A DNA stretch of 22,873 bases. Origin: Planctomycetota bacterium. Lineage in GTDB: Bacteria > Planctomycetota > Phycisphaerae > WQYP01. Under the pieces are notes generated by a model. That model was given only the letters and a program-made list of their open reading frames with translations, had not been told where the DNA came from and made no database searches. Each line of letters opens with the position of its first letter. The first letter of the stretch is position 1. Shown here in pieces: positions 19,928 through 22,722 of the stretch. A program made the position numbers and the translations under genes. Where the stretch lies: the NCBI GenBank assembly GCA_021798635.1, contig JAJZGH010000047.1, positions 1 to 22,873 on the forward strand, written 5' to 3'.

Positions 19928-20329
19928 TTACAGACCATTCCGCAGCATGGCCAGCAGGCGTTGCTGGTATTCCAACATCGCTATGCGCCCGTGCGGCTGC
20001 ACCACCACCAGCACATCCAGCCCCGGCGGAAATTCATGCTGCGCCAGCCGCCACGCCTCTCGCACCCGTCGGCGAATCGTGTTGCGCTCCACCGCTGACC
20101 CGCACTTTTTCGCTATCGAAATAGCCACGCGTGCCGGCCCGGAATCCGGCCGCCGCACGATGCAGGCCATCAGCGGCTTGTTCCGGCGGCGCTGGCCAGT
20201 TTTATAGACCGTGTCAATAAGCTTTTTCCCGGAAAGGCGATGCGACTTGAGAAACCGCAGAGAATTCGTGCCGCCGCTAGCCGGAGATGGCGGTTGTGGC
20301 AAAACAAAATCATCTCTGGCTGCGTTCAT
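19928..20329 (-). CDS. rnpA: Ribonuclease P protein component
   Basis: RnpA is the small basic protein that helps the RNase P RNA bind precursor tRNAs and cleave their 5' leaders. The 133 residues include [21 protein letters not shown] (the N-terminal helix and strand, from about residue 26) and the RNR signature region [20 protein letters not shown] (70-89). The first 24 residues, rich in Pro and Ser, are an extension compared with the roughly 119-residue E. coli protein. The start at 20329 is the only ATG before the conserved part; GGGG-rich sequence precedes it, without a clean Shine-Dalgarno. The usual upstream partner rpmH (ribosomal protein L34) is absent from the 431 bp between rnpA and the ABC-F gene, and tadA instead of yidD or yidC follows. 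Confidence 0.94.
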
Positions 20330-20451: not shown

Positions 20452-20725
20452 TAGTGCTCTGTCAAGCCTACAAATTAGGATTGATTGGCCGCAAAGGCTC
20501 CAGATGCAAGGAGCCAGCGGCGAGAACCGGGTCCAATAAGACCCATTGAGCCGCTGCGACGCCGCAGATGGGGCGTTTGCGGGCAACCCTGCGGGCGGGG
20601 GCCAGGAGGCCGTGGGCTTTGGCGCTCGTCGTCAATGTATGTTCCCATACATAATCCTCCTCGCGTCGCGCCCACAACCCCCTGGCCCTCCGTCAATCCT
20701 AATTGGTAGGCTTGACAGAGCACTA
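20452..20725. mobile_element. MITE-like element or structured RNA: 33-bp terminal inverted repeats beginning and ending in TA
   Basis: The ends 20452-20484 and 20693-20725 are inverted copies matching at 32 of 33 bases; the outer part reads TAGTGCTCTGTCAAGCC. The TA at both ends could be a target duplication, as made by IS630/Tc1-type and some IS5-type elements. The 208-bp interior encodes no convincing protein but is full of pairing: GGCTCC/GGAGCC (20496-20501 with 20510-20515), AGCGGC/GCCGCT (20516-20521 with 20550-20555) enclosing GGGTC/GACCC, CCGCA/TGCGG (20562-20566 with 20578-20582), GGGCCAGG/CCTGGCCC (20599-20606 with 20681-20688), GTGGGC/GCCCAC and ATGTATG/CATACAT around TTCC. It therefore also looks like a multibranched RNA closed by a 33-bp stem. 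Flanks: 122 bp to rnpA, 35 bp to the ABC-F start. No second copy is in the window. Confidence 0.7.
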
Positions 20726-20760: not shown

Positions 20761-22722
20761 ATGTCGCTTTTATCAGTTAAGAATGTCAGCAAGGCTTATG
20801 GATTGCGCCATGTGCTGGAAAACATCACCATGGATGTGCAGGTGGGAGATCGCATTGGATTAATCGGCCCCAACGGAGCCGGGAAATCGACCCTGGTTAA
20901 AATTATCGCCGGCGTTGAGGAACCGGACCACGGGACCGCAACGCTGGCCGGTGATGCGTCCATGAGTTATGCCGCGCAACAACCGCGGCTGGATTTAACG
21001 CAAACCGTCCGGCAGCAGGTGGAACTGGTTTTTGCCCATGTTAGAGAGATTGAACATCAGTTGCAGTTGGCGGCTGAGGAACTGGCACGCGACCCGGACG
21101 GGCCCGAGCATGATGCGGCCTTAAAGCATTACGATCATTTGCAGCATCAATTTCAGCACCTGGAAGGTTGGGATATTCAGCGGCGCGTGCAGATGGTGCT
21201 GGAACAGCTTGGATTTACGGATGGGGAGATGGACCAGCCCGTGGCCAATCTTTCGGGCGGCCAGAAATCCCGCATCCAACTGGCGCGCATGTTGCTGGAA
21301 GGGGCGGACTTGCTGCTGCTGGATGAACCTACCAATCACCTGGATATTCCCATGCTGACCTGGCTGGAAGGCACCCTTTCCGGCCTGGAAGATACCGCCA
21401 TGATTATTGTCAGCCACGACCGTTATTTTCTGGATCGGGTGGTCAACAAGGTTATTGATTTGCGGTCCGCGGGGATTGAAGAATATATCGGTAATTATTC
21501 CGCTTACATGACCCAGCGAGCGGAACGTTTGCTGACCCAGCAGCGGGCCTATGAACAGCAGAAAAATTTTATCGCCAAGCAAGAAGAATACATCCGTCGT
21601 TTTTCGGCCGGACAACGCGCCATGCAGGCGCGCGGGCGCAAAACGCGCCTCGAAAGATTCAAGACTGAATCCGCCATTGGCAAGCCCGGCGGTGATGCAG
21701 CCCGCATGATACTGAATCTGGAACTTGAAAAGCCCAGCGGACAGCATGTGCTGAAACTCCGCGATTTATCCAAAGCGTATGGTCAAAAAGTTCTCTTTGA
21801 AAATATCACACTGGAACTGACGCGCGGCGATCGGCTGGGCATTGTCGGTCCTAATGGTTCCGGCAAAAGTACGCTGCTGAACATTCTGGCCGGGAAACAA
21901 CCTCAGGACGCCGGCGAAATTGTCTGGGGCCACGGCACAACCGTGCAATATTTCCAGCAGGAACATCAGGACTTGAACCCCGCCAATACCGTGATGGAGG
22001 AAATTCACAGCGTCAAACCCGTTACGCCGCCGCAGGATATACGGGAACTCGCCGCCCTGTTTCTGTTTTCCGGGGATGATATATTCAAAAAAGTCGGCAC
22101 ACTGTCGGGTGGAGAAAAGGCCCGCGTGGCGATGGCCAAAATGCTCCTGAACCCCGCCAATGTCATTCTCATGGATGAACCCACCAATCACTTGGATATG
22201 AATACATGTGAAGTGGTGGAAGCGGCCTTGGAAAGTTATGACGGCACACTGCTTGTGGTTTCGCATGATCGTTATTTTCTGGCCAATGTCTGCGACCGCA
22301 TTCTGGCGATGGAACCCGATGAAACCGCACCGGGCGGCTGGCGGCTGGTGGACGGGACATTTGATGACTATGTACTGGATCGGGAAAAACGTGCCCGCCA
22401 CAAAGCGGCAGCCGCAAAGGCTGCCGCTGCATCGCCTGCGAAGGCGGTAAAGGCGGCTCCGTCGACCAAGGCTCCGTCCGGAAAGCCGCCGGTGGCGGAA
22501 AAAGCGAAATTGCCGTGGCATCTTGAAAAGCTTTCCGCCGGGGAATTGGAAAAAATGATCCAGACCAAAGAGCAGGAACTGGGAAAGCTGGAATCGCAAT
22601 TTGCCGACCCCGCCATAGCGGCAGTGCCGGCCAAACTAAAAAAGCATCAGCAGGACTACGAAAAACTACAAGCGCAAATCGCCGAAGCCCTGGCCGCGTG
22701 GGAAACGAAGGCTTCACGGTAA
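20761..22722 (+). CDS. ABC-F family ATPase (Uup/YdiF/EttA-like), soluble, ribosome-associated type
   Basis: A 653-residue protein with two ATP-binding cassettes and no membrane segments. First cassette: Walker A GPNGAGKST (36-44), signature LSGGQ (164-168), Walker B LLLLDEPTNHLD (184-195). Second: GPNGSGKST (363-371), LSGGE (448-452), ILMDEPTNHLD (469-479). The linker between cassettes (about 243-325) is charged and helical, the P-site tRNA interaction motif of ABC-F factors. After the second cassette come an Ala/Lys/Pro-rich linker (545-585) and a C-terminal coiled coil (590-650), as in Uup. ABC-F proteins act on the 50S subunit, rescuing stalled ribosomes or, in some members, giving antibiotic resistance; Uup-type is the more likely reading. 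The start at 20761 fits the fold; a GAGGT lies 10 bases upstream. The inverted-repeat element ends 35 bp before it. Confidence 0.95.
   Translation: MSLLSVKNVSKAYGLRHVLENITMDVQVGDRIGLIGPNGAGKSTLVKIIAGVEEPDHGTATLAGDASMSYAAQQPRLDLTQTVRQQVELVFAHVREIEHQLQLAAEELARDPDGPEHDAALKHYDHLQHQFQHLEGWDIQRRVQMVLEQLGFTDGEMDQPVANLSGGQKSRIQLARMLLEGADLLLLDEPTNHLDIPMLTWLEGTLSGLEDTAMIIVSHDRYFLDRVVNKVIDLRSAGIEEYIGNYSAYMTQRAERLLTQQRAYEQQKNFIAKQEEYIRRFSAGQRAMQARGRKTRLERFKTESAIGKPGGDAARMILNLELEKPSGQHVLKLRDLSKAYGQKVLFENITLELTRGDRLGIVGPNGSGKSTLLNILAGKQPQDAGEIVWGHGTTVQYFQQEHQDLNPANTVMEEIHSVKPVTPPQDIRELAALFLFSGDDIFKKVGTLSGGEKARVAMAKMLLNPANVILMDEPTNHLDMNTCEVVEAALESYDGTLLVVSHDRYFLANVCDRILAMEPDETAPGGWRLVDGTFDDYVLDREKRARHKAAAAKAAAASPAKAVKAAPSTKAPSGKPPVAEKAKLPWHLEKLSAGELEKMIQTKEQELGKLESQFADPAIAAVPAKLKKHQQDYEKLQAQIAEALAAWETKASR

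Follow-up and report, generated by a model that had tools for sequence, protein, structure and literature searches.

A planctomycete MITE with IS630-type tips carrying an inverted pair of a structured module

The 274-bp element described here lies in a 22,873-nt contig of a Planctomycetota bacterium (GCA_021798635.1, JAJZGH010000047.1; the whole stretch is referred to below as the window) and is best explained, with a probability that we put at roughly 70%, as a non-autonomous transposon (MITE) with IS630-type tips that carries an inverted pair of a selected structured module, most likely an RNA. As a MITE it belongs to a known kind of element, of which it forms a new family. Its module, on the other hand, occurs in roughly one in four of the planctomycete genomes sampled, as well as in chlamydiae and proteobacteria. 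In the mechanism that we propose, an IS630-type transposase would move the MITE in trans via its tips and insert it at TA, mostly within CTAG; the cargo would be an inverted pair of a structured module of about 100 nt rather than transposon debris, and selection would maintain its folded form, most likely as that of an RNA. Since the two copies face opposite ways, a transcript entering from either side would contain one sense module, located in the half of the element nearer its 5′ end. The module would act in cis on the transcripts in which it lands: a host factor of wide occurrence would contact its conserved internal-loop core, which may make insertions tolerable or even useful. Current transposition, transcription, the host factor and any benefit are all things that we infer. 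A broader proposal, namely a mobile class of structured RNA absent from Rfam 15 that spreads as singles or inverted pairs, borrows the tips of any insertion sequence and acts in cis through one conserved host factor, is tentative and in our estimate somewhat doubtful.

Architecture of the element

The preliminary description, made from the sequence alone, had proposed near-perfect 33-bp inverted ends bounded by TA and an interior filled with hairpins, and each of these features was recovered (Table 1). The terminal repeats are complementary at 32 of 33 positions (97%) and constitute the longest of the 14 inverted-repeat pairs listed for the window; TA stands at both termini. With up to three mismatches allowed, two occurrences of the 19-nt outer tip are present in the window, and none of 100 shuffles has it. 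The ORFs overlapping the element (105 aa per strand) both extend beyond it. Short, with terminal inverted repeats and no transposase gene, the element thus classes as a MITE.

Table 1 Features of the element and its neighbouring genes (positions in the window)
Feature	Position	Strand	Details
Whole MITE	20452..20725	+	274 bp, TA to TA; orientation set by left-arm module
Left terminal inverted repeat	20452..20484	+	tip TAGTGCTCTGTCA.., subfamily A; tip also on IS630-type elements
Right terminal inverted repeat	20693..20725	-	inverted-repeat search
Left arm, structured module	20485..20589	+ (sense)	R1 111.3 bits; R2 83 bits; covariation
Small inter-arm hairpin CCC-TGC-GGG	20587..20595	+	predicted fold
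Right arm, inverted module copy	20593..20692	- (sense)	R2 35.4 bits minus vs 11.1 plus
rnpA (RNase P protein), left neighbour	19928..20329	-	TIGR00188, 75.4 bits (cut-off 38.35)
ABC-F ATPase gene (ribosomal protection-like), right neighbour	20761..22722	+	NF000355, 436.5 bits (cut-off 380)

Together with a few flanking bases the element folds at -167.3 kcal/mol (z = -12.3), a value matched by none of 200 shuffles. The interior alone (20486-20690) has z-scores of -5.6 on the plus strand and -5.3 on the minus strand, with 0/200 shuffles as good on either, and since it beats all shuffles without the ends, the fold is not attributable to the ends alone. Besides the terminal stem, the predicted structure has two long arms separated by a small hairpin, which shows no double change among its three pairs across 36 non-redundant copies. 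No conserved segment of RNase P RNA, tmRNA, SRP RNA or 6S RNA had been recognised by the earlier reader, and none of the Rfam 15 families reaches its gathering score in the window; a search of nine loci with E-values up to 0.5 returned two microRNA matches only (27 of 100 and 25.9 of 90 bits), far below gathering.

Two models were used to search for the arms: R1, built from left arms, and R2, built from 29 matches of R1 and plasmid matches. R2 scores the two arms of the window element on opposite strands, the left arm reaching 16.8 bits on the wrong strand as against 83 on the plus strand, and in a filtered R2 search the right arm is found at 20597-20687 on the minus strand (E = 2.3e-5). Sixteen short loci, chosen for size from among the 60 full copies, were tested in addition: on the inverted strand the right arm reaches 23.7 to 47.4 bits in all 16, and its score on the opposite strand, where listed, does not exceed 17.1 bits. 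Because the hairpin resembles its own reverse, the left arm of these 16 loci still reaches 19.5 to 35.4 bits on its wrong strand where listed; this range overlaps the right-arm scores, so that for the weakest copies the score by itself is no proof of a pair. Beyond the family the pairs stand out clearly: a second module is matched at E-values of 1e-9 or better in L234, L242, L246, L266, L330, L341, L342, L344 and L347, and in a series of 23 loci taken one per genome (L338-L360) an inverted neighbour is present at E < 1e-3 in five, with L352 at 0.012. The hairpin-filled interior is thus one module of about 100 nt in two inverted copies around the small hairpin.

Dispersal of the element and origin of its tips

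A pattern consisting of the two tip blocks with a variable gap matched 92 stretches of the genome collection, 91 of them titled as planctomycete and one as Chlamydiae; the latter (L050:6685-6717, Chlamydiae SZUA-160) is one exact match in a genome without any element match and is taken as chance. Element matches occur in nine of the ten genomes behind the pattern loci (5 to 84 rows each, including fragments and tip self-matches), and matches were also obtained in 17 of 28 genomes of the planctomycete family to which G003 belongs (G003, Planctomycetota bacterium ZJ5.bin40, JAKBCC, is the source of L004). An initial 66 full copies were reduced to 60 by dropping six alternative-end duplicates, and one copy was re-oriented; 57 copies were used for structure after exclusion of L026 (hybrid), L131 (run of N) and L195, 36 of which remain below 95% identity. 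The full copies fall into subfamily A, which has the tip TAGTGCTCTGTCA.. and includes the window element, and subfamily B (tip TAGTGCCCTGTTCC..), and the interiors of the two are related. The hybrid (L026:122-381) combines one tip of each subfamily. The target context reads C-TA..TA-G in 46 of the 60 full copies and CTAG stands at both junctions in 33 of them: the TA is duplicated within a CTAG target. In L034 (genome G003) the left flank of 5843 is self-similar with a period of about 91 bases, hence a tandem repeat adjoins the element there.

Whether homologous loci lack the element and retain a single TA had been put forward as a check, and sites without the element do exist. At the window locus, upstream of the ABC-F gene, the element is present in G003 with its position unchanged (98.5% identity over 272 bases); it is missing from five relatives, G002, G005, G006, G007 and G009, and G001, G004 and G010 matched only weakly there. 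The element-free sites are not base-perfect, however, as some five bases, for example TGGCT, replace the element together with its TAs. G009 has a shortened relative of the element on the opposite side of rnpA. A near-clean empty site exists at a second locus, where G006 reads GGGATTC-TA-element-TA-GGGAGTC and G002 GGGATTC-CA-GGGAGTC, and about 45 bases away G002 carries a full B copy as against fused tips only (44 bp) in G006. In Variovorax, a 268-bp element in one strain is represented by a 53-bp remnant in another, the two sharing their flanks. The remnants (L335:730-782, 53 bp; L035:1308-1351, 44 bp) consist of tips and little else, and relatives carry the full element.

With blastn, the window element matched one phage record and ten plasmid records, in each case through short matches covering 7-14% of the query. 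Three tip or core patterns had no match in viral contigs; a further pattern returned 24 stretches that resemble phage coding sequence and have no hairpins as judged by eye, and these were rejected, and another pattern gave two matches, L262 being a real 269-bp element and L261 not an element.

IS630-type transposases (PF13358) are encoded in all nine genomes searched, and transposase elements that share their ends with the MITE, as sought on the basis of the preliminary description, do exist. In L149 the tips TAGTGCTCTGTCACG.. and TGGTGCTCTGTCAACG..TTAGGAT flank a broken transposase gene, and L269 contains a 378-aa ORF with PF13358-type relatives, its 3′ tip matching a subfamily A copy at 83% identity over 35 nt. 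Paired tips stand 1,285 and 1,265 bp apart in L273 and L274, their likeness to the B tip being by eye only. A blastn comparison of the MITE with ten transposase loci yielded the tips and short stray matches; the best match beyond the tips (43 nt, E = 1.5e-4) lies outside the insertion sequence of L274, and the module model has no significant match at 43 transposase loci (best E 0.019). An origin of the interior as a deletion product of an insertion sequence finds no support at these loci, the bodies of the IS630-type elements being without the module. As the tips are matched and the bodies lack the module, we regard the tips as IS630-type and the interior as of other origin. Judging by these tips, the MITE would probably be mobilised in trans by an IS630-type transposase. 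An IS630-family transposase gene with the tips TAGTGTTATGACACAG.. / TAGTGTCTCAACACAC.. is situated at the terminal CTAG of a module element on a plasmid of Azotobacter chroococcum HR1 (L336:1-1640), and an insertion-sequence end identical to that of L336 lies beside the module element of L265.

The interpretation as a MITE accordingly holds, on the strength of the dispersed copies, the TA in its CTAG context, the element-free relatives and the IS630-type elements sharing the tips; a single-copy sequence conserved in placement among distant relatives, which would have spoken against it, is not what was found.

Recurrence and covariation of the module

R1 matched 14 of 392 sampled planctomycete genomes, G003 among them, and none of the 116 genomes in the phylum of the Chlamydiae-titled genome. 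R2, with up to ten candidates scored per genome, found the module in 95 of the 392 planctomycete genomes and in five of the 116 genomes of the chlamydial phylum, one of which alone has 35 matches. Plasmids with an R2 match belong to Betaproteobacteria (Comamonas, Cupriavidus, Variovorax, Mitsuaria and Diaphorobacter) and Gammaproteobacteria (Azotobacter, Pseudomonas and Halomonas). Among the new matches of R1, many are single hairpins of about 100-130 bp that share no sequence in their outer stems, and there are also elements with different tips, 250-272 bp in size. In Variovorax, Azotobacter, Pseudomonas and Halomonas the complete elements are 267-271 bp long, close to the length of the planctomycete element, and have the tips TAGGGYCTGTTRACG; the second module of the Pseudomonas element is unmatched by R2.

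Several individual loci extend the range of forms. A second repeat family in genome G001 (L002:4793-5001, L092:5031-5247 and L057:7827-7928) has the outer end AGGAGTCTGTCC.. and a left part that is the module, followed in L002 and L092 by a second, inverted module. The ends of a single module of about 167 bp (L359:~1470-1640, genome G358) read CTAGTG..CACTAG, so CTAG tips are possible on single modules too. The single modules at L241:1501-1621 and L250 (genome G403) are A/T-rich and have a longer inner hairpin around the core. The core may also be common in Geobacter and Desulfobacterota, a possibility that is not used as evidence.

Covariation was scored in three alignments. Among 29 left arms drawn from the 36 non-redundant copies (A1), 16 of 35 pairs show a double change and the covariation score is 0.254, compared to 0.111 for shuffled and at most 0.073 for slid alignments. 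For A3, which comprises 29 hand-chosen matches from 25 sources, double changes affect 33 of 35 pairs, 90.0% of the cells are paired and the score is 0.731 (0.180 shuffled, at most 0.109 slid), and for the 62 rows of A4 it is 0.818 (0.185 shuffled, at most 0.121 slid). All three scores exceed those of all 500 shuffles; on one of five measures, the 33 pairs with a double change in A4, the value was reached in 18 of 500 shuffles, and A3 and A4 were fitted to the covariance model and are hence biased towards it. Compensatory changes, the absence of which was to count against a functional RNA, are therefore present both within the family and across phyla. Conservation was counted on 44 modules, one per locus, five of the 62 A4 rows that are retained in the A4 covariation being omitted. 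The internal loop and adjacent positions are nearly invariant across three phyla, with A, G, A and C in 44/44 modules and the others in 41-43; this core is GCNAGGNG / ACGCCGCAG. In the outer stem the sequence is free and the pairing is kept.

What these data say about RNA depends on the mismatch asymmetry between strands. For the 36 non-redundant copies, the comparison uses pairs that both strand predictions contain and that are Watson-Crick in most rows; the cells are not independent, so no p-value is attached. On the core-bearing strand of the 44 modules the ratio of G-U to A-C is 53:14 in the outer helix and 85:35 over all pairs. For the left arm of the 36 copies the plus-strand count is 53 G-U to 23 A-C; for the right arm it is 27 to 45, which becomes 45 to 27 on the minus strand. 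Each arm prefers G-U on the strand where it carries the core, and such an excess of G-U over A-C points to RNA. The tips (31 G-U and 25 A-C cells) show little strand bias; the terminal stem therefore behaves as a DNA transposon end and not as part of an RNA. Counting against the RNA reading is the folding of whole copies, of which 28 of 36 are more stable on the minus strand.

The closest rival, which we consider fairly unlikely, is a palindrome maintained at the level of DNA, in which the arms would be kept complementary by arm-to-arm correction (template switching or gene conversion) or would form a cruciform that aids transposition, with no role for RNA. The element is after all mobile DNA with IS630-type tips, and its long arms are complementary whatever their sequence. 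Moreover, the double changes are chiefly Watson-Crick on both sides (Watson-Crick to Watson-Crick in 17 of 34 pairs of the left arm and 10 of 32 of the right, 36 non-redundant copies), which is equally expected from a DNA palindrome. Against this rival stand the G-U excess on the core-bearing strand, which is seen in both arms and the 44 modules and not in the tips, and loop-region positions that are nearly invariant over three phyla next to stems of free sequence.

The preliminary description had also reasoned that being a MITE is not enough to account for the folding of the whole interior. We agree: the interior is a separate, widespread module with strong covariation and a bias of G-U over A-C.

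Genomic setting and relation to known systems

The start codon of the ABC-F gene lies about 35-36 bp past the end of the element, which could form part of the leader of this gene. Relatives without the element have a TAGAAT/TATACT-like hexamer just upstream of the site; a promoter scan found no promoter-like site. With a crude ORF caller, 16 of 30 copies fall in ORFs of doubtful reality, ten between ORFs of the same direction, four between convergent and none between divergent ORFs, and control spacers comprise 25 same-direction, 15 convergent and 11 divergent cases. Eight annotated plasmid stretches have genes on both sides, and in seven of them these genes are co-directional, the exception being L264. 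We infer that the module may be a cis-acting RNA carried by the MITE, and of the alternatives raised at the outset a MITE that produces a structured RNA appears to be the best.

The module might also be a two-way transcription terminator. A run of at least four A precedes and a run of at least four T follows the outer stem in 6 of 26 single modules, but a T run after the stem is present in just 7 of 26, so termination is not general. No T run directly follows the window element, and the window stretch has one terminator-like site compared to 0.9 expected, which is chance level; we consider a terminator improbable. A plain MITE, the interior of which would be the neutral filler of a recent founder folded by accident, is very unlikely: common ancestry accounts for much of the likeness between the listed family copies (about 72-99% identical), but other families and phyla have the module behind tips unrelated to these, which contradicts such an origin, and its covariation scores lie above all 500 shuffles. 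Equally remote is a REP/REPIN-type repeat moved by RAYT (Y1) transposases instead of an IS630-type enzyme, for although Y1 transposases occur in nine of ten genomes tested, the module (R1 or R2) is found at none of 30 Y1-transposase loci, searched about 1.5 kb to each side where the contig allows, and the copies carry long tips with TA.

MITEs are usually seen as gene-stripped transposons; here it is the interior that is conserved and the tips that vary between families. As a single covariance model already suffices to detect the module in 95 of the 392 genomes, the function of a bacterial MITE interior becomes directly testable, and a core common to three phyla suggests a common partner molecule that could be isolated.

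Searches of the literature by sequence letters returned, among the matches listed, primers, plant microRNAs and the like, and none when repeat terms were added. The portion of PMC4666352 that was available yielded no identity for the element or the module, and the core is described in neither PMC10969869 nor PMC3733652 as far as the available parts of these papers go. Nothing recognisable as the module was encountered in Rfam 15 or in the literature covered by sequence or theme, which is no proof of its being undescribed.

Three known systems invite comparison. The transcripts of bacterial MITEs form stable stem-loops, and Chunjie is a structured MITE of 235 bp from Geobacter uraniireducens, according to the available part of PMC10969869; it falls in a similar size class and likewise comes from an environmental bacterium, a likeness drawn from its description only. 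REP dimers (described in PMC3733652, in the part available) and REPINs resemble the module in being short structured units scattered between genes, which occur singly or as inverted pairs; the module differs in its length (about 100 nt as opposed to 20-40), in its core, in the long transposon tips and in having no RAYT gene nearby. The nearest relatives are the IS630-family MITEs of the Tc1/mariner superfamily. IS630 itself prefers CTAG with duplication of the TA. The element shares with these MITEs its IS630-type tips, the TA duplication, the CTAG context and the lack of a gene, and differs from them in an interior that is not derived from an insertion sequence but is an inverted pair of a module found elsewhere with other tips.
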